A stretch of 64,000 bases of DNA from Eutreptiella sp. 'Long Island Sound 2002' (Eukaryota; Euglenozoa; Euglenophyceae; Eutreptiales; Eutreptiaceae). Within the stretch, counting starts at the first letter, position 1. Every line of letters starts with the position of its first letter. Shown one piece after another: positions 3,431 through 54,202 of this stretch. The translations under genes were made by a program, and so were the position numbers. The notes beneath the pieces are model-generated. The model ran no database searches, was not told the DNA's origin, and was given only the letters and a program-made list of their open reading frames with translations. The DNA is taken from contig OZ038378.1 in assembly GCA_964036045.1 (NCBI GenBank), forward strand, positions 60,995,408 to 61,059,407. The letters are read 5' to 3'.

Positions 3431-3479
3431 GAAGCGTTGAGGGGATGGCCCCCTAGCTGCTACCATTGCAACCAGCCAA

Positions 3480-9876: not shown

Positions 9877-10237
9877 CAGCTATGTGTATAGCGACCTAGT
9901 CGGCTATCGGACATCAGGCATCAGACTTTTATGGACCATCATTACCAGACCATGAACCCCCCTCCCCCAACCCCTTGATTATGCACTACATCAACCCCCC
10001 CCCACCCCGCCCTTGTCCACACCAAACTCTTCGCAGGAAACCCCCCCCGTGACCCCCCCATCCCCCCCCACTATCGGGTGCTTCCAACCCCCCCCCCCCC
10101 CAAGGAAAAATGGTGCCACGGAAAAAACAAACCCCCCCGTTTGGAAATCAATTGCACACCTGTTGTTGACAATGAATGTGGCAACTTCAATTTGATTCTG
10201 ATTTTGGTTGTTTGAGCCGACAATTTGTTTGTGTACA
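9877..10237 (+). repeat. Left terminal and subterminal inverted repeat
   Basis: It begins with CAGCTATGTGTATA, followed by a diverged C-rich part holding GACATCAGGCATCAGAC-type words (9,909-9,926). From 10,013 it aligns base for base with the reverse complement of the right end, sharing TTGTCCACACCAAA, CACTATCGGGTGCTT, GCAATTGCACACCTGTTG and CAATTTGTTTGTGTAC. Its C runs correspond to the G runs of the right end. Confidence 0.85.
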
Positions 10238-10345
10238 ACACCCTTGAGGTGTTTTTGATTGTTTGTGGTCTAGGCCTTTGCGCCTTAGACCAGAGACCCC
10301 TTCAATGATGAACGCGTTGATCACAACTGAGAAGGGGTTCTGGCA
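10236..10345 (+). repeat. Hairpin module, copy 1
   Basis: It contains CCCTTGAGGTGTTT, then a hairpin (GGTCT-AGGC pairing with GCCT-t-AGACC) and then a 41-nt stem-loop at 10,297-10,337: CCCCTTC, ATGATGA, a 15-nt spacer, CTGA, GAAGGGG. The closing stem is seven perfect pairs. Copies at about 11.2 and 12.4 kb keep the same order and spacing. ATGATGA and CTGA next to a closing stem resemble boxes C and D of snoRNAs, but the spacer is far shorter than usual, so function is unknown. Confidence 0.6.
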
Positions 10346-10383
10346 TGTTTGCTCCTGCAACCAATTAAAATTTGCTGGCTGTG

Positions 10384-10631
10384 AGCCCCTTCAATGACGA
10401 TGCATGACAATTTACATGTGCTGCTCCGTCACGCGTGGGCCTTCTGTGTCGACCCCGCAGGGACCTGTTTCTTAGGACCTGTTTTGTGCGGACGGAGCTT
10501 TGTGGATTTGCGGCCGAGGAATGGGACTGCCCTCAGCAGTCAGTGTACCATGTCCACCAGAATGTGCACCATGTCCTCCAATGGCCAGCAACCATTTTGA
10601 AAACCAAGCAACGTACATCTGAGAAGGGGCT
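10384..10631 (+). repeat. Long module closed by AGCCCCTTC / GAAGGGGCT
   Basis: A perfect 9-bp inverted pair (10,384-10,392 and 10,623-10,631) encloses 230 nt. Just inside are AATGACGATG on the left and CTGA (10,619-10,622) on the right, the same order of words as in the 41-nt stem-loops. It may be an expanded or inserted version of the short module. Confidence 0.45.
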
Positions 10632-11141
10632 TTGCAGTGATTTCGAATGTGACTTTCTTGTTTTAAACCGCCCCTCTGTCCCAGCCCCGAAGGCTCATTG
10701 CAATGTGCTGCACTATGCCCTGCTCACGCTTTGTTGTTCATTGCAGGATCTGGTGACGACCATTAAAACCCCTGTGCTCTGTCTTGTCGTCCTCCGTCTT
10801 GCCGTGGTGTTTCTTGAGGAAGTTTGGAAAACCATACAGAGAAATCCATAGTGTGGGGAAAACACCCCCCACGCAACCCCATGCGCAATGGTGTGGAAAA
10901 GCCTGCCTTGCCTCTTTCAGTGTCAGCATCACATGGTGTGTGTCTTTGATGTTCAATGTTCTGTTGGTTCTGTGTGTAGTGGAAAAACATGGAAAAAATC
11001 ACAGACTACAGATTACCCACAGACTACAATTCTCAGAGGTTTGTTATGGTGTAAGTCGTGAACATTTGCAACTTTGGTGCCACGTGTCGCATTGCATTTC
11101 TTTTGAAGGTGTATTTGAACGTGTGCTGTTTATTCCTGAAA

Positions 11142-11250
11142 AACAACCATCGAGGTGTTTGGTATGTCCATGGTCTAGGCCCTGGCGCCTACGACCACAG
11201 ACCCCTTCGATGAGGAATGTGCTGACGACAACTCAGAAGGGGTTCTGATT
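11142..11250 (+). repeat. Hairpin module, copy 2
   Basis: Same layout as copy 1: GAGGTGTTT word, GGTCTAGGC hairpin, then the 41-nt stem-loop at 11,202-11,242 with the CCCCTTC/GAAGGGG closing stem intact. The internal words have changed (GATGAGGA and CTCA), so the stem is better conserved than the boxes. Confidence 0.55.
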
Positions 11251-11581
11251 TCGTGGTATTTGCTTCCATGTTTGCTATTTGACAAACGAGGTTACGCATC
11301 CCCTTGGATGATTTTTTGTTTCTAAGGGCGCAAACGCAGGGGGATGCTTTGCCGACATCAGGTCTGTGCTTCCCCCACAGCAGAGGCACAGACCCCCGCA
11401 GGGACCTTTTTTCTTAGGCCCTGTTTGGGTCGGCAGAGCTGTTGAGAAAGTGGGGCATGAAACAGCATTTGCCTAAGCATGGGAAAATTAGTACCATCCA
11501 ACTCCACATCCGGGGGGGAAGGGATCCGGCTTCGCACCAGCAGCATCCCTAAAGAGCCCTCGAGGCGCAGCCCCTGTCCCG

Positions 11582-11686
11582 GCCAAGTATGGTGCAAAGC
11601 CAAAGCCAAAGGCAATGGCACCACCACCATCACCACCATGCGCGCGACACGGCGCCCAACCCTCTGCCCTGCAACTGCGTGCCCCA
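11582..11686 (+). pseudogene. Internally deleted fragment of the element's helicase gene
   Basis: Bases 11,582-11,640 match about 13,739-13,797 in the Pro-rich start of the helicase gene, sharing TGGTGCAAAGCC and GGCACCACCACCATCACC with a few substitutions. The next bases (11,638-11,686) match about 14,424-14,469 of the same gene, sharing CCCAACCCTCTGC and TGCGTGC. About 630 bp present in the gene are missing between the two. This is a short decayed copy and not an expressed gene. Confidence 0.6.
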
Positions 11687-11904
11687 AGACATTTTTCAAA
11701 CATCCCCATGGTCGTATGGCGCCCGGAGGATGGCGCTTTTACCGAAAACAATGTTATGAGAAGGGGCTCTGCTTTGGCTGTTCTGGTTACCGTTCTCAGA
11801 GGTGTGCGTTGCTAATACTTTTGTGTCTTGGTTCTGTTTGATTTGATGGAATTGATGGATTTTATTTTATTAGATGGAGCATGCATTGTGCCATGTACGT
11901 ATGC

Positions 11905-12253
11905 ATCCCCTTCGATGATGTGTCAGCCATGTGGGAACAATCTGTCCAGGGCCTACTGTTGTAGGCCCTATTTTGTTGGATGGAGCCAGGCATCTCCCCA
12001 TACTCCAACGGATCTGCATGTTTGCCAAACTTGCCAAAGACCACTGCAATCAGCCCTACTGCACCCTTGTGCTGCACAACATACGCCAGCCCCTACCTTG
12101 ACAGCTTGTCTGGGTCATTGCGCAGATTCCGGCCCCAAGGTTTCTTTTTCATTATGCCTTGCTGGGCGCAGTACTGTCCAATGTGGAGGACTGCATTTGA
12201 GTTGGGTGATGCAGAATTCCCACTGTCAGCCAAAAAAAAAACTGAGAAGGGGC
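11905..12253 (+). repeat. Second long module closed by CCCCTTC / GAAGGGG
   Basis: CATCCCCTTCGATGATG at about 11,905 and ACTGAGAAGGGGCT at about 12,240 repeat the end words of the hairpin modules, here about 330 nt apart. The enclosed DNA shows no protein frame I would support. Confidence 0.35.
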
Positions 12254-12360
12254 TCTGCTATGTGGGTACTGGTGGTCCATTGATTTAATGTGGTTGTGAT
12301 TTCATGGTATGTTTTGGTTTTATCGCACTTGATTTTATGTTATTTGGCGGATCATGCACA

Positions 12361-12465
12361 ACACCCTTGAGGTGTTTAGTACGTCCGTGGCCTAGGCCAT
12401 GGCGCCTATGACCATAGACCCCTTCAATGATGAACATGCTGCCCACTACTGAGAAGGGGTCCCAT
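12361..12465 (+). repeat. Hairpin module, copy 3
   Basis: It keeps ACACCCTTGAGGTGTTT, a GGCCTAGGC hairpin with partial pairing changes, and the 41-nt stem-loop at 12,419-12,459 with CCCCTTC, ATGATGA, a 15-nt spacer, CTGA and GAAGGGG all intact. Confidence 0.6.
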
Positions 12466-12705
12466 GTCACATTATCCGGGTACCTATGTCCCTTCAACGC
12501 TTATCTGTTCCTTGTTGTGCATGTCTCTCTCGACACAAAGGGAAATGCGTGTATTGCCTAGGAGACAAGTGTGCGCTGAGCCTCTTCTACACATAGGGCA
12601 CTCTTTTGTTATCGACCCTTGACCCTTGAGGCGAGGAAGCGCGTCTAGGGTCTAGACCGTTGCGTCTCTGACCCAGACATTTGAGTTGGGCCTGCCCCAG
12701 CACCC

Positions 12706-13701
12706 ATGCGTTCATCCCCCACCCACTGCGGGCTGCACTTTGCCATGTCGTCTAGCCCCCTTAGCGTGGCCTCTTCCGCCCCCTCCAGCCCTTCGTTCCC
12801 GGAATGCGGTTGGGGGGATCTGCTTGAGCTCTTGCGGTTTGGAGACCAACCCCCATCGCCACCGTGGGACTTCGATGCTGAGAAGTGTCTCAGCGAACTG
12901 GCCTCCCCCCAGCCTCCATTGCCAACACCGCCTCCCTCTCCCCCTTCACCCCGCCGTGCACCAACAACCTCGCCGACGCCCGTAAGTCCTCCACGCAGAC
13001 CCCACATTAGCCCAACCCCATACCTGGTAGCCCTGGAAGCCGTGGAGGAGGCCCTGATCTGCACTGCCGTGCCACCGCCATCCCCCCCGCAACCCCCCAA
13101 GTACGTACCCAAGGACCCGCCCACCCCCCCAAAGCCCACTGTACACGGGCCCTACAGTGCCAAAACACTGCAGCTCATCCGGGAGAATCACGGGGGTGGC
13201 GTCCAGTACTTCGTAGACGGGGTGCTAAACCGCCGAGCGATGTACCGGTTTGCTGTGCAGCAGCCCAAGAAAAACCCCCTGCGGGTGTGGCAGGAGGGCA
13301 TGCGAATTAGTCGTTCGCATTTCCTCAGCAGGGACGAGGAGCATGCAGCAGTGGTACTTGAAATCCTGTGTGCCACCCCAAAACCCCCCCGCAACCCCAA
13401 GCCAGCCCCGCCACATGTGCCGCGTCGGCCGCTGCCCCCTCCACCAAGTGATCAGGTGACGCTGACCCAGTATAGCAGGCACCGCCGTACCTCAATCCTC
13501 CCACTGGCTCCCGCCCCAAAGCGGCCATGCCCCACCCCGCAGTACGGTTCATTGCTCCAGCGGCGTGCGTCTCAGTCCGCCCCCCCGCAATTTGGGTCAT
13601 TGCTCCCTGCGCAAGCCCCCCTGCAGCGACCCCAAAGCTCGGCGAGACGTTCGAATTTCCAGCTCTTGGGGCAGTGTGTGCCGAGCGTCTCTTACTCGTA
13701 G
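12706..13701 (+). CDS. Pro-rich protein preceding the helicase
   Basis: An open frame of 331 codons from an ATG at 12,706. The N-terminal two-thirds is Pro/Ser/Ala-rich with an acidic patch (WDFDAEKCLSEL). A more globular segment follows (about residues 145-230, including YFVDGVLNRRAMYRFAVQQ), and then a Pro-rich tail with a short internal repeat (QYGSLLQ / QFGSLLP). I do not recognise a family. It ends 13 bp before the first ATG of the helicase frame and uses a different frame, so it is either a separate upstream gene or the N-terminal part of the helicase protein cut off by an indel. The globular part argues that it is genuinely coding. It would be expressed with the helicase from the left part of the element. 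Confidence 0.6.
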   Translation: MRSSPTHCGLHFAMSSSPLSVASSAPSSPSFPECGWGDLLELLRFGDQPPSPPWDFDAEKCLSELASPQPPLPTPPPSPPSPRRAPTTSPTPVSPPRRPHISPTPYLVALEAVEEALICTAVPPPSPPQPPKYVPKDPPTPPKPTVHGPYSAKTLQLIRENHGGGVQYFVDGVLNRRAMYRFAVQQPKKNPLRVWQEGMRISRSHFLSRDEEHAAVVLEILCATPKPPRNPKPAPPHVPRRPLPPPPSDQVTLTQYSRHRRTSILPLAPAPKRPCPTPQYGSLLQRRASQSAPPQFGSLLPAQAPLQRPQSSARRSNFQLLGQCVPSVSYS

Positions 13702-13714
13702 GGCACTCTTCCAA

Positions 13715-15373
13715 ATGGCTCCAAAATGGCTCGCCAAGACCAAGTGTGGTGCAAAGCCGAAGCCGAAGGCAACGGCACCACCACCATCACCATCACCATC
13801 ACCATCGCACGCCCCAGAGGCGCGTGCCTCCGCCCCTGTCCCGGGCCGCGCGCCGGCTGACAAGGGCGCGCCGCACTGTGCCCCCGAAAAGGCGGCGGCA
13901 ACTCAACCGGGCGCCCCAGAGGCGCCACAGTCTGCCCCTGTCCCGGCCCTGGCGCCGGCTGACAGGGGCGCGCCGCACTCTGCCCCGGAAAGGCACCGGC
14001 AACTCAACCGCGTGCCCCAGAGGCGCCGCAGTACGCCCGTGTCCCGGCCCTGGCGCCGGCTGACAGGGGCGCGCCGCACTCTGCCCCCCCAAAGGCAATG
14101 GCACCTCAACCGCGCGCCCCAGAGGCGCTGCACTCCGCCCCTGTCCCGGCCCTGGCGCCGGCTTACAGGGGCGCGCGACCCTCTGCCCCCCCACAGGCAC
14201 CGCCCCAGCCTACCCGGGGGTGTGGATTTCGTCATGATCCCACCGCAACCCTCGGCACAACCACCATCATTGCGCGCCCCTGAGCCGCAGCAATCCGCCC
14301 CTGTCCCGGCCATGGCGCCGGTGGACTCGGGCTTGCCACAGGGTGCCCAACCCTCTGCACCAGCAATGCGTGCCCCCGAGCCGCAGCAATCCGCCCCTGT
14401 CCCGGCCATGGCCCCGGCTGACTCGGGCGCGCCACACGGTACCCAACCCTCTGCACCAGCAATGCGTGCTCAAGAGCCGCAGCAATCCGCCCCTGTCCCG
14501 GCCATGGCGCCGGTCGACTCGGGTACGCCACAAGGAGCTCAACCCTCTTCACAACCACCATGTGCTGCTCAGCCACAGCAGCCAACACTGTTGCCCACTA
14601 CCGCCACGTTGAACAACATGGACTACGGGCCCGATGACAACCGTGTCGAAGGGTTTACGCAACGGTGGCTTGACCGCGACAAGTTCGTGACCAAAGCATC
14701 AGAGGTGTACACGGTCCATGAGATGTCGGCCGCTGAGGTGTGGGCAGACAAGAACGGCACCAAGCGGAGCCTGGCCTTTGAGCGATGGTGGCCCCACGGT
14801 GATGGCAATGGGGATGGGAATGCTCCCCCACCGCCACAATGGGCCTCCCAAATGGAGGTCTGGGGCAACTATGAGCTGTCCGATGGTGACATGGTGCGTG
14901 GCTGGATCTCCAGCAACCACCAATGGGATAAAAACAAGCCGGACTTCGAGGCGAGGGTGCATGGAGATGGCATCTCAGGACAGCGTGTTTGGATCAGCTG
15001 TGCCAAAAAGCCACGCACCAATCTCACGGACACCTATTGGTGTAAGGTTGTCCCCGACACAGGTGCCTTTCAGACCTTGCGTAGGGAGATCCAAAACGGA
15101 GAAGCGTGGCCCAAACTGCTGGCAAACATGCGGGCCGAACCGAGGGACACGCCTCCCCTGTCGACCGAGGACCAGGACATCCTGAAACACCTTGTCAAAC
15201 AGCACGGGCTGAATCCCGGACAGGCGTTGGCTGTGCGGCAGGTGTTGGATGAGTCATGCATCACAGCATTGACTGGTGGTGCTGGCACAGGGAAGTCGGA
15301 GACTTTGGTGGCATGCATCAAGGCCGTGCTATGGCAGCAACCTCCTGGTCGCCCAGAACCCTCTACCTGCTGA
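13715..15373 (+). CDS. Upf1-like SF1 helicase, N-terminal part (to motif I)
   Basis: The start is the ATG at 13,715 (MAPKWLAKTKC). About 300 residues of Pro/Ala-rich repeats follow, including three copies of a 32-residue unit with QQSAPVPAMAP near 14,277-14,565. From about 14,618 a globular region begins with MDYGPDDNR. Near the end are a Q-motif-like LNPGQALAVRQVL and Walker A GGAGTGKSET (about 15,274-15,303), which bind ATP in superfamily 1 helicases. The frame stops at 15,371-15,373; motif Ia and later motifs continue in another frame. Between about 14,000 and 14,220 the frame reads Arg-rich text, while another frame there keeps the Pro/Ala repeat, suggesting two compensating indels. Known Upf1-type helicases unwind RNA or DNA; a role in transposition is inference. 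Confidence 0.75.
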   Translation: MAPKWLAKTKCGAKPKPKATAPPPSPSPSPSHAPEARASAPVPGRAPADKGAPHCAPEKAAATQPGAPEAPQSAPVPALAPADRGAPHSAPERHRQLNRVPQRRRSTPVSRPWRRLTGARRTLPPQRQWHLNRAPQRRCTPPLSRPWRRLTGARDPLPPHRHRPSLPGGVDFVMIPPQPSAQPPSLRAPEPQQSAPVPAMAPVDSGLPQGAQPSAPAMRAPEPQQSAPVPAMAPADSGAPHGTQPSAPAMRAQEPQQSAPVPAMAPVDSGTPQGAQPSSQPPCAAQPQQPTLLPTTATLNNMDYGPDDNRVEGFTQRWLDRDKFVTKASEVYTVHEMSAAEVWADKNGTKRSLAFERWWPHGDGNGDGNAPPPPQWASQMEVWGNYELSDGDMVRGWISSNHQWDKNKPDFEARVHGDGISGQRVWISCAKKPRTNLTDTYWCKVVPDTGAFQTLRREIQNGEAWPKLLANMRAEPRDTPPLSTEDQDILKHLVKQHGLNPGQALAVRQVLDESCITALTGGAGTGKSETLVACIKAVLWQQPPGRPEPSTC

Positions 15374-15389
15374 CCGGAGTACGTGGAAC

Positions 15390-16193
15390 ATGGGCAGGAA
15401 GGGGGGGGGACCTGAGTCAGATACCCCACCCCGCGCATGCGTGTTGGTGACTGCACCCACGAACGCACAAGTCGACATGTTGTTGGCACGCGTTCACGAG
15501 GAGTGTTACAAGGACAGTGTGTTTCGTGAGAAGGTGCTTGGCGCCCACCCAGCCCCTTGGTTGCGCCTCCGAGCCCAACGGGCTACTGCCCCAACAGGTT
15601 TGGCACCCTTCGACCAGGAGGAGATGCAGAAGACCTTGGGCAAGACCCTAGGTTGCAAGCCTACCCTCAAATGTGCCCTCAACTCCTGCCGTGTGCTGTT
15701 TGCCACGGCTGGGACTGTTGCTAACCGGCACAAGATGCTGCTTGGGAAAGGGCAGGAAAAAACCAGGTTCGCGTTCAGCTTCTTGGATGAGGCGTCGAGG
15801 CACAGCATCCCTGTAGGCCTGGACTTGGCCGCCATGGGCAGCCAATGTCTGCTGTGTGGTGACCCGGAGCAGTTGCGGCCCTACAGCCTCGTCCAGCTTT
15901 TGGCAAGTGAGTGTGAGGCTGAAAAGCTTGAGGTAGTCCCCAATAGAGTGGCATGGCCATCGGATGCCACCTTCAGGTACAACAATGTTGTAAGGGACGG
16001 TCTTGGCCCGGAAGTGCATTGGCATGATTCGCATCGGTTTTGCACCACCAGCACCTTGCAATTCTTTTTGTACCGCACGCGCTGCCGGGCCAGTATCCTG
16101 GTACAACAGTACCGAATGACCCAGCCGCTGGCCACGGTCATGCGTGCCTTGTTTACGGGGGGGGGGGGCAGTTGGCCACTACCACTCATCTGA
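15390..16193 (+). CDS. Upf1-like SF1 helicase, central part (motifs Ia to IV)
   Basis: This continues the helicase in a +1-shifted frame. Motif Ia is VLVTAPTNAQVDMLLARV, Walker B is FLDEAS (about 15,781-15,798), motif III is GDPEQLRP (about 15,860-15,883), and the Upf1-type QYRM signature follows at about 16,106. Upf1-like helicases usually have DEAA/DEAG and GDPxQLPP, so these are close variants. The segment begins as shadow sequence; protein-like text starts around 15,390, near a run of Gs at about 15,401. It loses frame at a long G run near 16,158, after which FT continues as VGHYHSSEHPLPDPILNNPI in yet another frame until about 16,330. Confidence 0.75.
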   Translation: MGRKGGGPESDTPPRACVLVTAPTNAQVDMLLARVHEECYKDSVFREKVLGAHPAPWLRLRAQRATAPTGLAPFDQEEMQKTLGKTLGCKPTLKCALNSCRVLFATAGTVANRHKMLLGKGQEKTRFAFSFLDEASRHSIPVGLDLAAMGSQCLLCGDPEQLRPYSLVQLLASECEAEKLEVVPNRVAWPSDATFRYNNVVRDGLGPEVHWHDSHRFCTTSTLQFFLYRTRCRASILVQQYRMTQPLATVMRALFTGGGGSWPLPLI

Positions 16194-16234
16194 GCACCCC
16201 CTCCCCGACCCCATCCTGAACAACCCCATCCGCA

Positions 16235-17029
16235 TTGTGGACCTCGCTGGGTCCACCTGGTGGGGGGAGTTGGAGCAGACTTTTGGGGGCACAGGACCTA
16301 GGTGGAATGTGGCACGACGTAGGGGAAGCATGGGCCACCCTGCGAATGGATCCGGTGTTGCTGAACAAGGGGGGCCTGAGCATGGAGGAGGGTCTGCTGG
16401 TGTGCCATTTTTTGGAGTATGCTGCAAGGAAAGGGACCTACCCAGCACAGTCGGTAGCGGTAGTGACGACTCACTACGCACAGATGGTGTGGCTGAAACA
16501 CTGCGTGGCGTGTGTAGGCCGCAAGTGGCACACCCATCATGTAAACCTCCTCAGAACGGTTGCGACCCTCGATAGGTTCCAGGGGCTGCAAGCCCCAGTG
16601 ATCCTGGCCTCCCTGGTGTCCACGACACCAGGGATCAGGCACGACATCTGGCGGTCAAACACCCTGACCAGCAGGGCGCAGTCGGAGCTGCACCTCTTCG
16701 GGCAGTTTGCACTGCGGACCACCCACCCCACCCCTGGTGTATGGCTCGAGGCACTGCACGCGATGCAGTGGGAAGCAGCCTCTGGGACTGTGAGCGACAC
16801 TCTTGAGCTGGCAGGGGTTCTGAGGGAGGCCGCAACTGTGGAGAAGATTGTGCATGGCACAATCTACCGGTTGGCCTGGGGGGTGGTGGGGCACTGGCTG
16901 TGGAAGCCATGGAGGAGGCACAAGAGGGCACGGGACCCATGGGGGTATTCACCAGGCAGTGCGGATCAGTTGCTTGACTTTGAGCGCATCATGGCCAACA
17001 ATCGGAGGATGAGGTGTCTGTTTCTCTGA
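16235..17029 (+). CDS. Upf1-like SF1 helicase, C-terminal RecA domain
   Basis: This frame carries the second RecA-like domain: a segment with EEGLLVCHFLEYAARKG, then VVTTHYAQMVWLK, motif V TVATLDRFQGLQAPVILASL, and motif VI SNTLTSRAQSELHLFGQ with the arginine expected to contact ATP. These match the AAA_12-type half of Upf1-family helicases in order and spacing. True coding in this frame probably starts near 16,300; the bases before are better read in the neighbouring frame. It ends at a TGA at 17,027-17,029, while the protein seems to continue in the next frame from about 17,008. Confidence 0.75.
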   Translation: MWTSLGPPGGGSWSRLLGAQDLGGMWHDVGEAWATLRMDPVLLNKGGLSMEEGLLVCHFLEYAARKGTYPAQSVAVVTTHYAQMVWLKHCVACVGRKWHTHHVNLLRTVATLDRFQGLQAPVILASLVSTTPGIRHDIWRSNTLTSRAQSELHLFGQFALRTTHPTPGVWLEALHAMQWEAASGTVSDTLELAGVLREAATVEKIVHGTIYRLAWGVVGHWLWKPWRRHKRARDPWGYSPGSADQLLDFERIMANNRRMRCLFL

Positions 17030-17529
17030 GGGATGCACGGGGGAACATTGTGAAACCCCGCCTTCTGGGGGTCATCCTGCCTGACTTCACCGAATGGGCG
17101 CTCCCGTACGTCTTGGTTGAGGACGATGGACAAGGGGACAGGGGAGAGGGGGACTGGGGGGGGCTGGTGAGGGTAACCCACACATCCAAGCTTGACGTGT
17201 GGGAGCAGCGACTCGTCCAGCACCTGGTGGGAAGGCCCCTCTTCTACAAGCAAAAGTACAGCAACAAGGAGACAGTAGGGGCGTACCGCACGATCCACCT
17301 GCCCTTGTGGCAGGACACGTACGCCTGCTTGGATTCCCTGCCGTTCTTGTGTGCGGAATTCCGCACCCCTATTGGTGTGTACGTGGCGTCCCTGCTCCAT
17401 GGTGTGCACCCTTGCCCTGGGGACCTTGGGGTGTGTGCACCAATTCCGGTGCACGAGGAGGGAGCCCCCCAATGTGGGTGGCGCAAGCTGCCCCACGGGG
17501 TGAAAGATTACATTTTGGGCCGCCACTAA
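17008..17529 (+). CDS. Helicase C-terminal extension
   Basis: An open frame without its own ATG that overlaps the end of the previous helicase segment. The translation is protein-like (DEVSVSLRDARGN; LLGVILPDFTEWALPYVLV; HGVKDYILGRH) and ends with TAA at 17,527-17,529. I recognise no domain. It is best read as the C-terminal extension of the helicase, displaced by an indel between about 16,984 and 17,014, where there is no long homopolymer. A separate small gene is less likely because there is no start codon. Confidence 0.5.
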   Translation, partial: DEVSVSLRDARGNIVKPRLLGVILPDFTEWALPYVLVEDDGQGDRGEGDWGGLVRVTHTSKLDVWEQRLVQHLVGRPLFYKQKYSNKETVGAYRTIHLPLWQDTYACLDSLPFLCAEFRTPIGVYVASLLHGVHPCPGDLGVCAPIPVHEEGAPQCGWRKLPHGVKDYILGRH

Positions 17530-17612
17530 CCCTGTATGTAGAAGAACATGCATTGACCCATGGCCTCTGGCCATCCCTGCGGCATCACAACAGTACCAGC
17601 CACAGCACCAGC

Positions 17613-17899
17613 GGGAAAGAGTACACACATGTGATCACCACCAGGTTTGCTGCACTGTGCGTTCATTATGTTTGTCCGCTGCGGTACGAATGTGCCCATG
17701 CCTGACTGCCCAAGATTGAAGGAGGTCTCCAAGGTCTTCAAGGTGGGGATGCCCAAAAAGGAGGTTGAAGACACGCCAACGATAATTGCCGTTCAACAAT
17801 GATACAGGACAATACATGACAATTTGGGGGGTCTACAGCCCCGAAATATTCCACGGAAGGGGTTCCGTCAAATATTTGGGGGGTCTACACCCCCAAAAT
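17613..17899 (+). repeat. 287-bp direct repeat, copy 1
   Basis: It matches 18,073-18,359 with few substitutions, offset by 460 bp. It includes GGGAAAGAGTAC, GATTGAAGGAGGTCTCCAAGG and GATAATTGCCGTTCAACAATG and ends inside about 1.5 units of the 52-bp satellite, so satellite sequence was already present when the duplication happened. Confidence 0.85.
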
Positions 17900-18073
17900 G
17901 GTGGGGTACATCAGGAACAGGCCTATGCATGCCCAGAGCGTGCCTATGGACGCCTCTGTGCCAGCCATGGCGCTGGCACAAGGCGCACCCCCCCCTTCCC
18001 CAACCGCAACACAGAGTGCTTCAATGGTAGGGGACATGAGTACGCATGCCCAGAGCATGCCTAATGAGATGTG
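17900..18073 (+). pseudogene. 174-bp fragment of the element's transposase gene
   Basis: The fragment aligns without gaps to 50,076-50,249, in the N-terminal low-complexity part of the hAT-like transposase ORF, with about four differences. It sits exactly between the two copies of the 287-bp segment. It is too short to encode a functional domain. Confidence 0.9.
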
Positions 18074-18359
18074 GGAAAGAGTACCCACATGTGATCACCA
18101 CTAGGTTTGCTGCACTGTGCGTTCATTATGTTTGTCCGCAATGGTACGAATGTGCCCATGCCTGACTACCCAAGATTGAAGGAGGTCTCCAAGGTCTTCA
18201 GGGTGGGGATGCCCAAAAAGGAGGTTGAAGACACGCCAACGATAATTGCCGTTCAACAATGATACATGACAATACATGACAATTTGGGGGGTGTACACCC
18301 CCAAAATATTTCACGGAAGGGGTTCCGTCAAATATTTGGTGGGTCTACAGCCCCCAAAT
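18073..18359 (+). repeat. 287-bp direct repeat, copy 2
   Basis: The counterpart of 17,613-17,899. Its right part runs directly into the long satellite, so it marks the left border of the array. Confidence 0.85.
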
Positions 18360-45120: not shown

Positions 45121-45133
45121 AACAAACCCACCA

Positions 45134-45797: not shown

Positions 45798-47390
45798 ATG
45801 GACCAGCCTGCTGAATGGCCACCGGAGCACTTGCTGGGGCCAGCAAGAATGAAGTATGGCCTAATGCTGGCCACAGGACAATTGGGGTGGGAGGCCGCAC
45901 TGGAGGTGGCCGGGCGCCTATGGCGACGGTTGAGGGACCGCATGGCCTCGTGTGACCTTGACGTGGTGAATCTGCATGGTTGCAGGGCATTGTGCCGGTT
46001 CATGTACACCGAGCATGGGTTTGCCCAGCCCACCATGCATGATGGGGGGAGCCGCGTGCACTACCGGGATGTTGCCATAGACCTGTGGGAACGCCTTGCA
46101 AACCGGAACCGTGGCCGGCCAAGCAGTCGTCAGGCCGGTGCTATTTCCGGGTGGCCGTCAACTGTGAAGACAGCAGAGCAAAGGGACGTTTGGTGTGAAC
46201 TGGTGCGTGCCCTACCTCTGGTCGACGAGTGGCCGTTCTGGACTGGGGACGTGGCGTATCCCACCCCTACCATGGGTTACTTCTATGACAAGGCTATTCG
46301 CCATGTGACGCCTGGCCCATATTTGTGGCCCCAAGCGACAAGTGGGCCCAAACCACTGGTGAGCGACCTGTTGCCAAGCCCCAAGGCGCGCGCTAGCGGT
46401 CGGCGCAACTCGTTGCTGCCTCAGGCTGCGGTCCCACGTGCGTGTGTTGCTGTCACCCAGACACGCCAAGAGCGCTTCGACCAAGCGTTGCTGCAAGCCG
46501 CCCATGGGGCAGCCTGCTGCCTCACGATTGCATGCCAAGGGCTGCAAGAGCAGCGCCGAGAACCATTGACCGAGGACAGCCTGGTGGCAGCATACACGCT
46601 GGGCCGCCACTTCGCGAACAGCATGCGGGTGCCTATGCAAGACTGCAACGAGCTCTTGCTGCGTTGCAGCCCCTTTAGCCCAGAGGTGCCAGACAGTCAT
46701 CCCGGTCGTCTGCATGCGGCCGTACGGGTTATGGACAACGCATGGAGGGATGATGGAGGGCTTGAGATGCTGCAGGTACTAGTGGAGGAGATGGAGGCGG
46801 CCGGTGTACAGCCAGCATACACCGAACGATTAAGTCCAGGAGGGCACCCCCGAGGTGACCCAAGTGACTCCACGTCCTCTGCCGTAGCGCAGGGGGTTGG
46901 AGCGGCGGTGCGCATGGAGGAGATGGAGGCGGCCGGTGTACAGCGACCATGCGCCCAACCTTTAAGTCAAGAAGGGCACCCCCGAGGTGACCCAAGTGAA
47001 TCCACGTCCTCTGCCGTAGCGCACGAGGTTGGAGCGGCGGTGCTCATGGAGGAGATGGAGGCGGCCGGTGTACAGCGACCATACACCCAACGATTAAGTC
47101 CAGAAGGGCACCCCCGAGTTGACCCAAGTGACTCCACGTCCTCTGCTGTAGCGCAGAAGGGTGGAGCGGCGGTGCTCATGGCAAGAGACCCCTCAGGCGA
47201 TGAGTCTGTGACTCCCACTTCGTCCCCCCTGGCACAAGGGCGTGGTCCCCCGGCAAGTGCACATAGGGTGGATAGCCCTGGTGAGGTGTTACGTCCACCT
47301 GCCCCCCCCCCAAGGTGGTGCGAACGACTCCGCGGCATGTGTTGGACGTGGAACACCGGACCCCTGGTCCCAGGTCTGCCCCGCCGATGA
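45798..47390 (+). CDS. Unrecognised element protein with 44-residue repeats
   Basis: An ATG at 45,798 opens 530 codons. Residues 1 to about 325 are globular-looking (MKYGLMLATGQLGWEAALEV; VDEWPFWTGDVAYPTPTMGY) and match no family I recognise. From 46,782 to 47,177 there are three in-frame copies of a 44-residue unit beginning [VM]EEMEAAGVQ and containing DSTSSAVA. After a C run at about 47,303-47,312 the frame ends quickly in Arg/Trp-rich text, while the neighbouring frame gives more natural protein until a TAG at 47,518-47,520, so one indel is likely at that C run. It is the first member of a tightly packed plus-strand block and could be the N-terminal part of a larger polyprotein. Confidence 0.6.
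   Translation: MDQPAEWPPEHLLGPARMKYGLMLATGQLGWEAALEVAGRLWRRLRDRMASCDLDVVNLHGCRALCRFMYTEHGFAQPTMHDGGSRVHYRDVAIDLWERLANRNRGRPSSRQAGAISGWPSTVKTAEQRDVWCELVRALPLVDEWPFWTGDVAYPTPTMGYFYDKAIRHVTPGPYLWPQATSGPKPLVSDLLPSPKARASGRRNSLLPQAAVPRACVAVTQTRQERFDQALLQAAHGAACCLTIACQGLQEQRREPLTEDSLVAAYTLGRHFANSMRVPMQDCNELLLRCSPFSPEVPDSHPGRLHAAVRVMDNAWRDDGGLEMLQVLVEEMEAAGVQPAYTERLSPGGHPRGDPSDSTSSAVAQGVGAAVRMEEMEAAGVQRPCAQPLSQEGHPRGDPSESTSSAVAHEVGAAVLMEEMEAAGVQRPYTQRLSPEGHPRVDPSDSTSSAVAQKGGAAVLMARDPSGDESVTPTSSPLAQGRGPPASAHRVDSPGEVLRPPAPPPRWCERLRGMCWTWNTGPLVPGLPRR
46782..47177 (+). repeat. 132-bp in-frame tandem repeat, three copies
   Basis: Three copies of a 132-bp unit (44 codons) encode EEMEAAGVQ, GHPRGDPS and TSSAVA blocks. 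The length is a multiple of three and the reading frame is kept in all copies, which supports this frame being translated. Confidence 0.85.
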
Positions 47391-47440
47391 GTCACACTCC
47401 CCGGCCCCCCACCCTGTGTGTCTGACACCGGCGGCTAGTG

Positions 47441-49003
47441 ATGGAGGGGTGGCGAGTTCCTTGGAGGAGTCTCCTGTACCACTTGCACAGAAACCCAAGG
47501 AGCCAGCTGCTGTGGAGTAGTCCTTCTAGCACAGGCACTGTGGCGACAGTGAAGGCCTGCAGTCAGTCTAGTGCGGATTCAGGGTACACCCCGGTTGAAC
47601 ACCCTAGTTCATTGGCGACAGTGAGGGCTTGCAGTCAATCCAGTGCAGAGTCAGCGACCACCCCGGTTGCACACCCCAGTTCTGTGGGACAGAGCCCACG
47701 GAGCAAGAAGCGCCCAGGGGTTCCCCCACCAAGTAATGGGGCTGCCGTGAAACGTGGCAAGAAAGAGCAAGGCACAAAGACAGCGCCGATAGATCCAGAT
47801 GCTATGGCATTGGACGACGTGGACAGAAAGCCCAGCAAGGCCGAGGTTGGCAGAGTCCTACCAACGGCAAGGTCCTTGAAGCTTCGCATTCTTCCCGACC
47901 AATACGTTGCCGGGGCATGTTTCTACTATGCCGTGGCCCAAAGCCTGCATGCTATCACCAGCAACACCCCGTTGGACGGCGCATCGCTGCGGGCAAGGGC
48001 CATCGCCGTGTTTCGCGACATGTGTGGGCTTTCAATTCAAGAGCCTACACTATCTGTGAACCGGGATCTTGAGAAGGACACATGGCGTGGCCGGCCCCAA
48101 GGGGGAATGGCTGACCACTTTGCTGCCTTGGCGAAGCATGTGGACGGTAGTGTGGTGTTGCTGCGATCAGACAGGTACAACATTGTGACGTCAGGTTTTG
48201 GGATCGACAGCGCGTTGACATCCGCTACTGCTTGGGTGCCTGGACGGGAGCATCCGCTGCACTACCGTGACTGTGGGGATATGGAGGAGCAGTGCCACCG
48301 GGCGACGGTGGTGGTTATTGCCGAGGCGGAACGAGATGGTGTCAAAGGAGGTGGTCATTTCCGGGGTGCAGTCTTTGACCATTCGCTGCAGGTAGCCCCC
48401 TTTTGCACGTTGCACGGGATGATGGGCATCTTGGCACACAAGCGTGGGCCGGTTGGGGGGGTTAGGGCGTGGCATTTGCAATTAGGAGTTGGTGGTATGA
48501 AGGGCCACACCAATGCAACAGACTGCCGCCGCACTCGTCTAGTGCAACGGACACGCAACTACAAGCCACTGGTGAGCCTGGTGAACAAGATGGCAAGGGA
48601 GATGTTGCCTAATTGGTTCACATGGACCACCATGCAATTATCTTGCAATGTGCTCACAAAACCGCATCAGCATGTGCATGACGCGTCCCATTGGTCGGCA
48701 GTGTTTTCCACCGGCCAGCACACACGGGGACACATATGGGTGGAGGTAAGTGGTGTATGTAATGGTCCGGGTGGACGGAGATGTAGTATGGAATGCTTGG
48801 ATGGTGTTACACGGGTTGGCGCCACGTACGATGTATGCCAGCAACCGGTTCTCGTACCTACGGGTGCATGGCATGGCACTTGTTCTTGGCACGGGGAGAG
48901 GAGGTTGGTGGTGTTGTACTCCCGTTGTGACTGGTGGACACTCCCGCCGCGGGACCGTGCATTCCTCAATGAGACCGCTTTCCGCTTACATGCAGGTGCA
49001 TAG
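47441..49003 (+). CDS. OTU-like cysteine protease with 2OG-Fe(II) oxygenase-like domain
   Basis: From the ATG at 47,441 this frame first reads Ser/Thr-rich sequence with two copies of a TV[KR]ACSQSSA unit and a basic stretch (SPRSKKRPG). About residue 153 an OTU-like core begins: AGACFYYAVAQSLHAI resembles the OTU block DGNCxFxAxA with Asp replaced by Ala, and a later GGGHFRGAV (about residue 305) fits the catalytic His region. OTU enzymes remove ubiquitin. From about residue 390 the text resembles a double-stranded beta-helix oxygenase: KPHQHVHD, then GHIWVEV, YDV, and WHGTCSWHGERRLVVLYSR near the end, where His and Arg would bind iron and 2-oxoglutarate. The usual HxD is HxH here. The stop at 49,001-49,003 overlaps the start of the next frame by 14 bp. 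The OTU assignment is moderate and the oxygenase assignment tentative. Confidence 0.55.
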   Translation: MEGWRVPWRSLLYHLHRNPRSQLLWSSPSSTGTVATVKACSQSSADSGYTPVEHPSSLATVRACSQSSAESATTPVAHPSSVGQSPRSKKRPGVPPPSNGAAVKRGKKEQGTKTAPIDPDAMALDDVDRKPSKAEVGRVLPTARSLKLRILPDQYVAGACFYYAVAQSLHAITSNTPLDGASLRARAIAVFRDMCGLSIQEPTLSVNRDLEKDTWRGRPQGGMADHFAALAKHVDGSVVLLRSDRYNIVTSGFGIDSALTSATAWVPGREHPLHYRDCGDMEEQCHRATVVVIAEAERDGVKGGGHFRGAVFDHSLQVAPFCTLHGMMGILAHKRGPVGGVRAWHLQLGVGGMKGHTNATDCRRTRLVQRTRNYKPLVSLVNKMAREMLPNWFTWTTMQLSCNVLTKPHQHVHDASHWSAVFSTGQHTRGHIWVEVSGVCNGPGGRRCSMECLDGVTRVGATYDVCQQPVLVPTGAWHGTCSWHGERRLVVLYSRCDWWTLPPRDRAFLNETAFRLHAGA

Positions 49004-49862
49004 TGGGCCACTTGGTGGAGCACCGCGGCGACCATGGGGAATGGAGAATCCACATGGGTACAACTGGTGTTGGTTGGGTACCACGCTGCAGTGTCTGTTG
49101 GTGGCGTCGGGTGGACATGAAGGACAGCACGCACGATGCCTGGACGAGGAGGGTGTCTGGGGACCATTGCGGCAGGGTGTTGTGGCACATGGAGGAGGTG
49201 GTGCATACGATCCACAGGACATTGCTGAGAGGCTGGCAATGGAGGATGCCATGTGTGAGACGGTGTGCCGATGCAGCGGGCGATGCAAGTGCAAAGCCCC
49301 TGCACCAAAATTCCAATGGATGCGGCAGGCGGAGATGCCCGAGTGTTGGAAGTACATGGTGCCCAAGCTCACGGCCGCTGGGGTGGTTGCTCTGTCATGT
49401 TGTTTGTCGTACGAGCAGTTCTGGCAATACTGTGGTGCCTGTGGGGTGAAGGTTCTGCGGGAGGGGGGGGAGACACCCATGCCAGCGCAGATATTGCATG
49501 TGACGAACCAGGGACAGAGTGTGCGACAGCGTGTGAAGGAGGGAATGAAGGGGAGAACGGTTGGGTTACCTGACAACCGCCCCCCGTGTCCGTGTGGGGG
49601 TGACCTGAGGGAGGCACCAATGTATACATCGGTGGTGTACAACGAGGTCCTGGGGTTACATGTCCACAACCAGCAGGAGTACAAGTTGGTTGTGGACCAT
49701 GAGTTTCTCGATTGCCTGGGGTGGCAATGGTCCTTGCATGCCATGGTGTTGCACATTGGAGCGACGAGGGAGGAGGGTCACTTTGTGGTGCATGTCGTTT
49801 TCAACGACAGGTGGTGGTTGTGTAACGACACCACGGTGAAGGCCATGAATCCCCCCCCCTGA
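48990..49862 (+). CDS. USP-like (peptidase C19) deubiquitinase domain
   Basis: The start is the ATG at 48,990, overlapping the previous frame. GYNWCWLGTTLQCLL near the N-terminus (candidate catalytic Cys27) corresponds to the USP Cys box NTCYxNSxLQ. Near the C-terminus EEGHFVVHVVFNDRWWLCND (His264, Asp280) corresponds to the USP His box GHYxAYV...W...D. Between them CGACG and CPCGG could form a zinc site, as in many USPs. USPs cleave ubiquitin from proteins. The frame ends in PPP-stop at a run of nine Cs (49,851-49,859), but the neighbouring frame continues DPRKATFLLYKRK, which matches the usual end of a USP domain (aYxLFYxR). So the domain very likely continues across the C run into the transposase frame. 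Confidence 0.65.
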   Translation: MQVHSGPLGGAPRRPWGMENPHGYNWCWLGTTLQCLLVASGGHEGQHARCLDEEGVWGPLRQGVVAHGGGGAYDPQDIAERLAMEDAMCETVCRCSGRCKCKAPAPKFQWMRQAEMPECWKYMVPKLTAAGVVALSCCLSYEQFWQYCGACGVKVLREGGETPMPAQILHVTNQGQSVRQRVKEGMKGRTVGLPDNRPPCPCGGDLREAPMYTSVVYNEVLGLHVHNQQEYKLVVDHEFLDCLGWQWSLHAMVLHIGATREEGHFVVHVVFNDRWWLCNDTTVKAMNPPP

Positions 49863-49923
49863 CCCGCGAAAGGCGACGTTTCTGCTATACAAGCGGAAAC
49901 AGACACATTTGGTTGTACCAGAC

Positions 49924-51831
49924 ATGTCGCAGCGTGCCTCCCAACGGACAGGACCGCCGGCCCCTGGTCAGACACGGGATGCCCGGAGCGTACCTACTGA
50001 CACCTCGGTGCCAGCCATGGCGCTGGCACCAGGTGCGTCCCCCCCCACCCCTCCTTCAACACAGGGTGCATCGAGGGTGGGGTACATCAGGAACAGGCCT
50101 ATGCATGCCCAAAGCGTGCCTATGGACGCCTCTGTGCTAGCCATGGCGCTGGCACAAGGCGCACCCCCCCCTTCCCCAACTGCAACACAGAGTGCTTCAA
50201 GGGTAGGGGACATGAGTACGCATGCCCAGAGCATGCCTAATGAGATGTGTTTGGCTGCCTCGGCGCCGCTACACACGTCCTCAGAATTCGTTGAGGCAGT
50301 GGCACAGTTGCTGCAGAAGCGCAAGGTGCGAGTGGCAAGGCATCTGAGAGTGCGTGTTGAAGCACACCAGATGCAACTGAGAGCACGCCATGCAAAAGAG
50401 TGGGATGCGCGGCATGCAGAGCATGGCATGTCACAATCCTCAGTGGCACAATCAGTCGAGCAAGACAGGTTGAGGTCTGTTGCATCGGCCGCATCGGGGA
50501 AGGACGCATTGTGCGTGTTGATGCAGGCCACTCCCATGCTACCGGACAGTGGTCCAAAGACACTACAAATGTTTGTAGCCGCTCATTGGCAGTATCAGTT
50601 CACGACAAGTGGGGGTGTTGAGTGTGTGTGTTGTGCGTGGGCAAACGTGTGTGGCATTCCTGGGGTGGCGCGTTCCCATAAGAAAAGTGAAGCCCTGGTA
50701 TTGGGAACATATGCTGTAGGGATGCGCATGAAGACCTCCGCCCCAAAAACGTGGCGGAAGGAGGTGTTGGAAAGCCACTTGGGGTTATCACGTGGCACAA
50801 CATCAAACCGAAAGAATCTGCATAGGCCAAGGCACCACCACCGATTGGCTGAGGACAGTTTCAAGCTGCATTGTGCAGAGCGGTATCGCGCATTGTGCCC
50901 CACTGCTGGTGCCACAGCTGTGGTGGTGGGAGCAACCGTTGTGTTCGTCAGGGGGGAAGCCATGGACATTGGTGTGGCAGTGTCGGATGCTGAGGCAGCC
51001 ATTCTGTCACGGTTGGTTGAGGTGTATATAGGGTTACGCATGTGCACTTCCATCCGTGCTATAAGTGAGCGCATCCTTCTGCACTGTTCTCTGACATCCG
51101 CCCCTGGGCACCATGCATCACGGCGGTGGATAGTTGAGAAGGCTATTGCCGCAATGCATGATGCCATGCAGGATGAGGTAACGCATGCCCTATTCCTGGC
51201 AACGTTCATTGCAGTGTTGCTTGACGGCTCGGATAGGCAGAGGCATCACATCAATGAGTACGCCATTCTGCTTATTTTCCCGGGGACTGGGCCTGGGGGC
51301 ATGTGTGAGGTGTTCCTTGGTGTGGTGGATGTGGCCTGTGGTGATGCGCATGAGGTTGCAACGCAGCTAGAATGCGTCCTGATGTCCTGGATTCCTGACC
51401 GTGATTGGTGGGCAAAGAGGGTAGTGACCTTTGCAGTGGACGGGGCTTCTAACCTTGGTGTGCGGGGTGCCAGTGCGCGGCAGGTTGTTGATGTCTCACA
51501 CATTGAGAGCATTGTGTTCGCCTTGATTAGGAAGTGGTTAGTGTTGATGACACCCTTGGGTGAGCCGTGCCATGTGTTGCAGCGCAAGTTGGGTCTTGCA
51601 TTGGAGGCTCCTGGCCCAACCCATGTTGATTACTTGGCGGCCGTCAATCGGCAACGAGGCTTGTACAATGGGGCACGGCAGTGGAAGGAGTTGCAAAAGT
51701 GTGTGCAAAGGCATGTGCAGGATAAACGTAGTGGCTTGCAGCTCATCCCCACAAGTCATCGCATCAGGTGGTCACAGGCGCATGCACGGCGCAACACTGC
51801 TTTTTTCGCCAATGTCCCTTGGGTGGCATGA
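49924..51831 (+). CDS. hAT-like transposase, N-terminal and RNase H-like part
   Basis: The first ATG is at 49,924, but the frame is open upstream to the C run at 49,851, where it carries the end of the USP domain. The N-terminus is low complexity, with SVPAMALAPG-type repeats like those in the helicase. A BED-like zinc finger may lie near HWQYQFTTSGGVECVCCAW. The RNase H-like core shows LDGSDRQRHHINEYAILLI (Asp434), TFAVDGASNLGV (Asp506) and PCHVLQRKLG (Cys549-His550), the order seen in hAT transposases of the DUF4371/ZMYM-like type (DxS, DGASNM, CxxH). IRWSQAHARRN fits the conserved TRW block. It is cut by an in-frame TGA at 51,829-51,831, after which the same frame stays open for 554 codons. 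The position near the right end and the 8-bp flanking repeat agree with a hAT element. Confidence 0.65.
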   Translation: MSQRASQRTGPPAPGQTRDARSVPTDTSVPAMALAPGASPPTPPSTQGASRVGYIRNRPMHAQSVPMDASVLAMALAQGAPPPSPTATQSASRVGDMSTHAQSMPNEMCLAASAPLHTSSEFVEAVAQLLQKRKVRVARHLRVRVEAHQMQLRARHAKEWDARHAEHGMSQSSVAQSVEQDRLRSVASAASGKDALCVLMQATPMLPDSGPKTLQMFVAAHWQYQFTTSGGVECVCCAWANVCGIPGVARSHKKSEALVLGTYAVGMRMKTSAPKTWRKEVLESHLGLSRGTTSNRKNLHRPRHHHRLAEDSFKLHCAERYRALCPTAGATAVVVGATVVFVRGEAMDIGVAVSDAEAAILSRLVEVYIGLRMCTSIRAISERILLHCSLTSAPGHHASRRWIVEKAIAAMHDAMQDEVTHALFLATFIAVLLDGSDRQRHHINEYAILLIFPGTGPGGMCEVFLGVVDVACGDAHEVATQLECVLMSWIPDRDWWAKRVVTFAVDGASNLGVRGASARQVVDVSHIESIVFALIRKWLVLMTPLGEPCHVLQRKLGLALEAPGPTHVDYLAAVNRQRGLYNGARQWKELQKCVQRHVQDKRSGLQLIPTSHRIRWSQAHARRNTAFFANVPWVA

Positions 51832-53493
51832 CACTTGGATTCCAATGTGCAGCATTCTACCAAGGAGGAGGATGTGTGGGAGGACTGCCATGATGCCGGT
51901 TTGCTTGCATGGGGGGTGGTCTACGGGGACATCCTGCATGGCATGCGGTGTTTTAACAGTGTGGCACAACTACGTGCGCCCACTGGTGCACACTTAGCCA
52001 CTGCAACAGGTATGCTAGAAGCCCGGTTGCAGAGGGTGGCTCGCGAGGAGGGTCCAGGGTGGTTGCAATTCAAGGAGCAGACTGTAACTGGTGCGTGGCG
52101 TGGTGTGCAGTTGGTCCAGTTTGATTCGGGTGGGCAGAAGTGTGCAACAACCCCTCCTTTTTCAGGCGTTCAAGCGCGTGCAGTGACCGATGTGTTGCTT
52201 GCAGGCATCAGGGAGGGGCAGGCAACCATTGACCCCAGGGGGGTGTTGGAGTGCACAGTCTTGTTGGACCATGGCCGTTTCGTTGCCCTCCCGGTCAATG
52301 AGCGTGCTGCATATGGGGTGGAGCAGTTGCGTCAGTTCATGACTTCACACCAAGAAGAGTTGGGTGCAGCCAATGTGAACTGTGACCGTGCCTTGGTAGA
52401 GTGGGAAGGCCTTAAGGAGCACATGGTGCAGCACTTTGCAACTGTGCAAATGTCCAAGATGTGGGAGGCACTGGCACCTGAAAGGGCACATGCACAGTGG
52501 GGGAATGTGTGGCGCGCTCTCGCATTATTGCGAACATATTGCCCCGCTGAAGCTGCAGTAGAGCGTGCCCTCTCTTTGCGTGGGAGGTTCTGCAGTATTT
52601 TGCGTGACACTGTGGAGACACATGTCCTGAGCATGTGCATGGCATTGCATTCCAACTTGCCCCCTTTACAGCAATGGGCAAAGGGACAAGGCGTTGCAGT
52701 GGCACGCCACCTGGCTGCCCATGCACGCTTCGATCTGCGCCCAAGACAGAGGGTTTCAAAGAAGGTAGGGGACAGAGAATCTGTGGAGGCTGCAATGCTT
52801 CAATGTCTGCAAGGTAATGAAGCAGTGGCTGATGATGGTGACAGCCTGCCCTTCTTTGGAGGGCCGGGTACACCACTGAGCTCAACGGCACCCTCAGGAA
52901 AGGGTACAGAACGGCACCAGGCAGATGTGGTCAGCATTGTTGCACCTGATGGGACCCCTGACTCGCATGCTGGCAACCATGACTTCATCACTTTTCGCAG
53001 AGGTATGGAGTGTGCCACATGCAAGAAGGAGGTTCGCATGTGGTGCAATACATGTCCGGTGTGCCATGCATGCTTTTGCGCAAGTCCACGTTTTTGTGGG
53101 AACGTGGTGGTGAATGTTGTAGATGATGTCTGTGATGAGGGGGAGAACAATAGTGCAGACGAATTGGCCACACCACGGAAGCCAAATAAGAGGCGTGGTG
53201 TGGCCAGGATGCAGGCGAAATTGGTGATGGCCACGCAGAATGGCAGGCTGCGTGATTGGTCAAAGGGGGCGCTGTTGAACTGTCTGGATGTGCTTGGTGT
53301 GAAGGTGGCAGGTAACAGCGATCGGCAGGAACTGCGGGACCTTGCTACGCAGCATGCGTTGCCATTATTGGAAGAATGGGATGCCTTTGTGCCGGACACG
53401 GACCGTGTCACCCGTTCTGCGGCACCACCAAGCAGCTCCCAGCCCAGTTGCTCGCAGCCAATAGATGACATGGATGGACTCATCGATGAATGA
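51832..53493 (+). CDS. hAT-like transposase, C-terminal part with zinc and SAP-like segments
   Basis: This is the same frame as the preceding ORF, directly after the in-frame TGA, with no ATG at its beginning, so it is the C-terminal half of the transposase and not a separate gene. It starts with helical-looking text (DVWEDCHDAGLLAWGVVYGD). Near the C-terminus is a Cys-rich segment, ECATCKKEVRMWCNTCPVCH, followed by CFCASPRFC, probably zinc-binding. The last 100 residues contain DWSKGALLNCLDVLGVKVAG, resembling a SAP DNA-binding motif. A typical hATC dimerisation motif is not evident. A 39-bp GT...AG interval (51,814-51,852) would remove the stop and keep the frame, but its splice sites are weak; a nonsense mutation is simpler. 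Confidence 0.6.
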   Translation, partial: HLDSNVQHSTKEEDVWEDCHDAGLLAWGVVYGDILHGMRCFNSVAQLRAPTGAHLATATGMLEARLQRVAREEGPGWLQFKEQTVTGAWRGVQLVQFDSGGQKCATTPPFSGVQARAVTDVLLAGIREGQATIDPRGVLECTVLLDHGRFVALPVNERAAYGVEQLRQFMTSHQEELGAANVNCDRALVEWEGLKEHMVQHFATVQMSKMWEALAPERAHAQWGNVWRALALLRTYCPAEAAVERALSLRGRFCSILRDTVETHVLSMCMALHSNLPPLQQWAKGQGVAVARHLAAHARFDLRPRQRVSKKVGDRESVEAAMLQCLQGNEAVADDGDSLPFFGGPGTPLSSTAPSGKGTERHQADVVSIVAPDGTPDSHAGNHDFITFRRGMECATCKKEVRMWCNTCPVCHACFCASPRFCGNVVVNVVDDVCDEGENNSADELATPRKPNKRRGVARMQAKLVMATQNGRLRDWSKGALLNCLDVLGVKVAGNSDRQELRDLATQHALPLLEEWDAFVPDTDRVTRSAAPPSSSQPSCSQPIDDMDGLIDE

Positions 53494-53823
53494 GAGGATG
53501 CCCACGTATTTGCATGTGCCCTTTTGTTGTTGTGTGCTGTCTTCGAAGATTTTTCCCATTTTCCCTGTTTGCACATTTGATTTGATGTTCTGTGGCATTA
53601 CCACGACCATTTTATTTGTGGATCTGAATTTAACTGATGCTGATTGCAATGGTCATGATGCAATCCCTTGAGATGTTTCCCATTTGGCTTTTTTGTGTGG
53701 TGGTTGTTCAATTTTCCCACTTTTCCTGGTCCCACATTTTCTCCTTTCCCCTTTCCCCTTTCCCCTTTCCCCTTTCCCCTTTCCCCTTTCCCCTTTCCCC
53801 TTTCCCCTTTCCCCTTTCCCAAA
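53494..53823. other. 3' region of the transposase gene
   Basis: No gene. It follows the TGA of the transposase frame and contains a polypyrimidine heptamer repeat that borders the right subterminal repeat. Confidence 0.6.
53743..53820 (+). repeat. Heptamer repeat (CCTTTCC)n, about 11 copies
   Basis: 78 bp of uninterrupted 7-bp units, purely pyrimidine on this strand and GGGGAAA-type on the other. Such mirror-symmetric tracts can form triplex DNA, and the G4 tracts can form quadruplexes. It lies directly inside the right subterminal inverted repeat and has no counterpart at the left end. Confidence 0.9.
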
Positions 53824-54202
53824 GTACACAAACAAATTGTCTGCTCAAACAACCAAAATCAGAATCAAATTGAAGTTGTCACATACACTACTGTCAACAA
53901 CAGGTGTGCAATTGCTTTCCAAACAGGGGGGTCTGTGTTTTCTGTGGCGCCTTTTCTCCTTGGGGGGGGGGGAGGGAGGCTGGAAAGCACCCGATAGTGG
54001 GGGGGGGGGGTGGGTGGGGGGGGGATGGGTGGGGGGGGTTTCCTGTGAAGAATTTGGTGTGGACAATGGCGGGGGGGGGGGGGGGGCATTGGACCCCTAG
54101 ACCCACCTCCAGTACATAAGAATATCAGACATCTTCGTGGACAGACCGCACACACAACATCCCTTATCAGACATCAGACATCAGACCTTATACACATAGC
54201 TG
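53824..54202 (-). repeat. Right terminal and subterminal inverted repeat
   Basis: The reverse complement of this stretch aligns with the left end, ending in a perfect 14-bp terminus at 54,189-54,202. It contains long G runs separated by GTGGGTGG and GATGGG (about 53,961-54,086), a strong candidate for G-quadruplex formation, and ATCAGAC words at 54,124-54,132 and 54,166-54,187. Confidence 0.85.

Follow-up and report, generated by a model that had tools for sequence, protein, structure and literature searches.

The genome of Eutreptiella sp. contains a locus that raises the question of whether a transposase-like gene, a helicase gene, protease-like genes and a long satellite array can belong to one DNA transposon and, if so, of what kind. 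The locus was analysed within a window of 64,000 nucleotides, and positions are counted from the first letter of this whole stretch. It is likely that positions 9877-54202 were inserted as a single DNA transposon, which probably belongs to the hAT superfamily and is now old and probably inactive. The case for a single transposon is drawn from its matched tips, the 8-bp repeat flanking them, mirrored subterminal blocks, a tip motif shared by both ends and a copy, in the opposite half, of part of the transposase gene.

The ends are defined by a perfect 14-bp terminal inverted repeat (TIR), CAGCTATGTGTATA, at 9877-9890 on the plus strand and 54189-54202 on the minus strand, which occurs once per strand in the 64-kb window. 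By chance, the longest perfect inverted match in 150 random pairs of 250 × 250 bp was 6-10 bp. The tips are flanked by CTGAATGG on the left (9869-9876) and CTGAGTGG on the right (54203-54210), the two copies of a target-site duplication identical at seven of eight bases, a match reached by 232 of 400,000 random position pairs; at flank lengths of 2-7 and 9-11, at most four bases match. Farther in, a left subterminal block (9995-10236, plus strand, 242 bp) mirrors a right one (53824-54084, minus strand, 261 bp) at 83.9% over 261 columns, each starting 118 bp from its tip. The original prediction had named the perfect inverted terminus, about 220 bp of inverted subterminal similarity and the imperfect 8-bp direct repeat, and all three hold up.

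Short motifs also cluster at the tips. CATCAGAC is found three times in the 64 kb, both strands together, at 9919, 54172 and 54179, in each case less than 50 bp from a tip. The two terminal 120-bp stretches hold five of the eight window occurrences of ATCAGAC, a descriptive count for a motif that was chosen from the ends themselves. On the left, GACATCAG and CATCAGAC (9910-9926, plus strand) are candidate transposase-binding sites, and on the right the ATCAGAC repeats span 54165-54186 (plus strand). The orientation of CATCAGAC does not differ between the ends, a pattern that scattered sites for transposase binding could produce.

Ends that clearly come from one family could also belong to two small elements in inverse orientation that by chance flank unrelated host sequence. 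A forward tip with three mismatches does lie inside the element, a poor match at 12255, and three others lie outside; however, no reverse tip occurs inside at up to three mismatches, the only other match of that orientation in the window being at 3255, outside the element. Inner ends of two small elements were thus sought in the window and none was convincing, in keeping with the earlier claim of one element. The agreement of the flanking 8-mers at seven of eight bases, as rare among random pairs as stated above, also argues against two elements, as does a 174-bp copy of transposase positions 50076-50249 that lies at 17900-18073 (plus strand, 97.7% identity), beside the helicase gene. Because this piece of the transposase open reading frame (ORF) was copied next to the helicase, it ties the two halves together. 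It sits between two 210-bp copies (17613-17822, plus strand, and 18073-18282; 96%) at the left edge of the satellite. A composite origin is accordingly considered very unlikely, and a single element bounded by these ends appears well supported from the window alone.

Codon usage is less informative on this point. In a codon model trained on the right-half ORFs, the annotated frame was positive and the other two negative in five of five left-half segments, and the same preference was seen in all five right-half ORFs when each was left out in turn. The model scores highest of all outside the element, in repetitive sequence of the left flank (minus strand, 0.377 at 3521); it is thus not element-specific and is weak as a link between the halves; the codon bias common to both may be that of the host. 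The flanks gave no Pfam match at E 0.05 in any of 12 frames, all Pfam matches of the window falling between the ends, and when the flanks were joined no host gene appeared, the longest open frame across the junction being 92 codons. The left flank contains tandem repeats of 225 bp and 213 bp (2620-3396 and 3601-4025), and its minus-strand windows at 3461-4060 have the highest codon-model scores in the window.

Canonical hAT elements, such as Ac, hobo, Hermes and Tol2, have a short TIR whose consensus begins with CAG, an 8-bp target-site duplication, subterminal repeats and one transposase, and are usually a few kb long with a single gene. The element shares with them a short TIR starting with CAG (14 bp, perfect), an 8-bp duplication (at seven of eight bases) and subterminal repeats, and adds several ORFs and a 26-kb array. 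Its putative transposase is encoded at 49924-53493 (plus strand), interrupted by one in-frame TGA (51829-51831). Motifs lie at 51223 (DGSD), 51439 (DGAS), 51766 (RW) and 52561 (ERALS), and their hAT-like order runs from DGS.. and DGAS through CH.. and RW to an ER.LS..R....R block at the C-terminal end. Pfam, the C-terminal dimerisation domain PF05699 included, found no match in the whole ORF or in segments that had the expected core or dimerisation domain at their centre, and the Protein Data Bank (PDB) returned unrelated chains only, at E 0.11 or worse. An AlphaFold model of the core, which in a hAT transposase is RNase-H-like and of DDE type, was unusable (mean pLDDT 35.7).

Profiles of the hAT core and C-terminal regions were written by hand after the transposase protein had been seen, and against the protein's own shuffles its scores were reached by 4 of 2000 (core; 2 of 4000 in a first run) and 2 of 2000 (C-terminal; 3 of 4000 in a first run). 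Among eight protein pieces both profiles scored best in the expected ORF and in the expected order, the other seven scoring lower with either. Against all 1199 ORFs of the window neither result was significant (core, E 1.4, ranked fourth; C-terminal, E 1.3, ranked first); equally high scores arose in 6 and 8 of 20 shuffled ORF sets, respectively, and one reversed ORF scored 7.3 with the core profile. Support for a hAT-like transposase thus comes from motif order and from hand-written profiles measured against the protein's own shuffles, but it is matched by none of the curated profiles.

The KDZ/Zisupton and P superfamilies also make 8-bp duplications, and membership of one of these instead of hAT would fit a transposase that escapes Pfam. 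The same Pfam result bears against this alternative, however, as no family is listed for the protein and hence no KDZ or P model either, and the motif order and the profile support against own shuffles are hAT-like. Another superfamily is therefore improbable, while assignment to hAT is regarded as probable, chiefly because of the motif order, the tips starting with CAG and the length of the duplication, 8 bp. By eye, the C-terminal extension of the transposase (53014-53490) has a cysteine-rich stretch and a SAP-like sequence; Pfam gave no match at 53050-53490.

The left half of the element has a gene for a UPF1/Aquarius-like SF1 helicase at 13715-17026 (plus strand), split over frames at 13715-15370, 15372-16190, 16192-16320 and 16340-17026. 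Pfam places AAA_11 (32.6 bits) and AAA_12 (32.5) above the cut-off of 27 and AAA_30 (22.8) below it. Five solved helicases, four of them named Aquarius, match the C-terminal piece in the PDB (best E 1.8e-4), and a single helicase matches the middle piece (E 0.77). The helicase motifs TGGAGTGKS, DEAS, GDPEQL, TLDRFQG and TSRAQ follow in this order. The Upf1-like helicase that had been proposed is confirmed by these Pfam and solved-structure matches. Upstream lies a proline-rich ORF (12685-13701, plus strand) that is positive in the codon model. Pieces from the repetitive N-terminal part of the helicase gene also occur upstream, with 11583-11682 resembling 13740-13795 (91%) and 14427-14469 (86%), which is a second sign of internal copying. 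A sequence of about 105 bp is also present three times left of the helicase, at 10240-10342, 11146-11247 and 12355-12460, with 79-81% identity to the first copy.

The right half encodes, besides the transposase, two ORFs for which protease functions had been suggested. The USP-like deubiquitinase (48990-49899, plus strand) is recognised by PF00443 at E 5.2e-7, limited to profile positions 197-239 of 254 (43 positions, the C-terminal box), and this match bears out the label; in the PDB, USP5 matched at E 0.077. The USP-like protein contains NWCWLGTTLQCL, by consensus a plausible cysteine box. The strand that ends it, KATFLLYKRK, is encoded in the following frame, downstream of a run of nine C (49851-49859) after which the first frame reaches a TGA. 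The OTU-like label is weaker. The ORF concerned (47426-49003, plus strand) has a weak OTU-like region at about 47882-48379 with GACFYYAVAQSL and a late HFRGAV, without the Asp usual before the Gly; the region has no Pfam or PDB match, and 18 of 2000 shuffles reached its score with a hand-written profile. A second, unclassified region of this ORF follows at about 48590-49000. It includes HVHDASHW and WHGERRLVVLYS and, in our estimation, resembles a dioxygenase-like domain of algal retroelements; it had no Pfam match, and its structure model was unusable (mean pLDDT 31.8). Farther upstream, a 538-codon ORF (45774-47390, plus strand), likewise unclassified, contains three 132-bp repeats.

Reading frames are broken in several places. 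The coding signal of the helicase changes frame several times, and the OTU-like ORF overlaps the USP ORF, which is read in another frame. Counted by frame numbers, +1 is the direction of six of the seven frame changes that were examined. This does not support a rule by which frames shift by +1 at stop codons, as chance gives six of seven fairly often and three of the seven best switch points (15339, 16283 and 17002) are favoured over the stop by more than 5 bits. Homopolymer runs of at least nine bases coincide with two of the seven changes, G12 at 16157 and C9 at 49851, and sequencing error as a general cause is not established with two of seven at such runs. A 30-base GT-AG stretch spans the transposase TGA, but is one of 12 such candidates and proves nothing. 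Introns, slippage in long C or G runs and real decay are all possible causes of the frame breaks, and decay is the simplest reading of this copy. Because its frames are broken in several places and its duplication is imperfect, the copy has probably decayed, and it is probably old and inactive.

A further arrangement is offered by the junction of the USP and transposase genes. The USP frame ends in CCC CCC CCC TGA (49851-49862), and as the open frame of the transposase already starts within the tail of the USP, a +1 shift would fuse the two proteins. A giant hAT family that moves as a multi-gene unit with a UPF1-like helicase and deubiquitinases, and makes its transposase as the tail of the USP protein via such a shift, is nevertheless a doubtful proposition.

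Several known systems invite comparison. Helitrons and Helentrons carry a Rep domain and lack both TIRs and a target duplication. Pfam listed no Rep domain in the plus frames of 9901-18302 and 44601-54202, and with TIRs and a duplication present and no Rep in plus frames outside the satellite, this identity was rejected. Helentrons with an OTU-like protease, which are rolling-circle elements, do resemble the element in joining a helicase and an OTU-like protease in one mobile element, whereas the present element differs in its TIRs, its 8-bp duplication and the UPF1-like type of its helicase (PMC6431247). Starships are likewise large and multi-gene, and use a DUF3435 tyrosine recombinase (PMC9594970); Pfam found no DUF3435 in the plus frames of 9901-18302 and 44601-54202, which speaks against this identity.

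The nearest comparison is ToxhAT, a 14-kb hAT transposon carrying ToxA in fungi and the cargo-bearing hAT found among the literature matches listed. Like the present element, it is a larger-than-usual hAT with a non-transposase gene, and its scale is near that of the element without its satellite (about 18 kb). In contrast, ToxhAT is smaller and carries an effector gene as cargo instead of a helicase and deubiquitinases, and the sections of its description consulted mention no internal satellite, which the present element has (PMC9594970). Among the matches listed from open-licence literature, judged by title and abstract beginning, there was no hAT that has an internal satellite or carries OTU, USP or UPF1-like genes. 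Protein scans of viral and prokaryotic collections with six short peptide patterns each, suited to close relatives only, detected no relatives, nor did DNA-pattern searches and a plasmid search, and Rfam had no match at gathering scores.

In the single-transposon reading, both the TIRs and the subterminal ATCAGAC sites would have been bound by the transposase, which would have inserted the element in a cut-and-paste reaction with a stagger of 8 bp. The UPF1-like helicase and the deubiquitinase-like proteins may be element genes that aid its persistence, for example by assisting repair or replication after excision or by shielding element proteins from ubiquitin-dependent turnover. The satellite would not be functional cargo; slippage when gap repair was interrupted may have expanded it within the element, and a process of this kind could also account for the 174-bp copy of the transposase and the duplicated 210 bp found at the left edge of the array.

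How the element reached its size depends on this satellite, for which 26 kb had been claimed and which is a 52-bp unit repeated 506.6 times at 18282-44649 (plus strand). The original description of a giant element stands insofar as the matched ends span 44,326 bp, but 26,368 bp of these, the main part, are satellite and the rest amounts to about 18 kb. The size would therefore reflect an array that expanded inside a large hAT-type element with several genes, and past movement as a 44-kb unit is unproven. Indeed, there is about an even chance that a hAT-type element of some 18 kb or less inserted first, that the satellite grew later in place and that the 44-kb unit never moved, a sequence of events that departs from the preferred single-transposon reading in how large the mobile unit was and is otherwise compatible with it. 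The share of the array in the total length and the transposase copy and 210-bp duplication at its left edge favour growth in place. So does the mean distance from the consensus. When the tracked monomers are grouped by 25, it is 1.4-2.9 of 52 in 16 of the 21 blocks, as it would be if the array had been homogenised where it lies; the remaining five comprise the right edge together with blocks on the left side, most of which the tracker read out of phase. Against this, the window offers no feature from which the relative age of array and insertion could be read.

If other copies confirm it, this would be an unusually large element of its kind and would widen the hAT size range. Such copies would also mean that a cut-and-paste transposase family can carry a helicase and ubiquitin-removing enzymes and house a growing satellite, linking DNA transposons to the origin of satellites and to the control of protein stability by mobile elements.

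The consensus satellite unit folds as two hairpins (z -6.6). Selection on these hairpins is not supported, as arm changes are uncompensated: the most variable pair is A-T in 346 monomers and T-T in 107, counted at 458 of 510 tracked positions after 52 with at least 14 differences, mostly phase-shifted stretches misread by the tracker, were dropped. Four similar 33-bp junctions with a change of phase, at 19414, 20175, 21040 and 22581, suggest block duplications inside the array.
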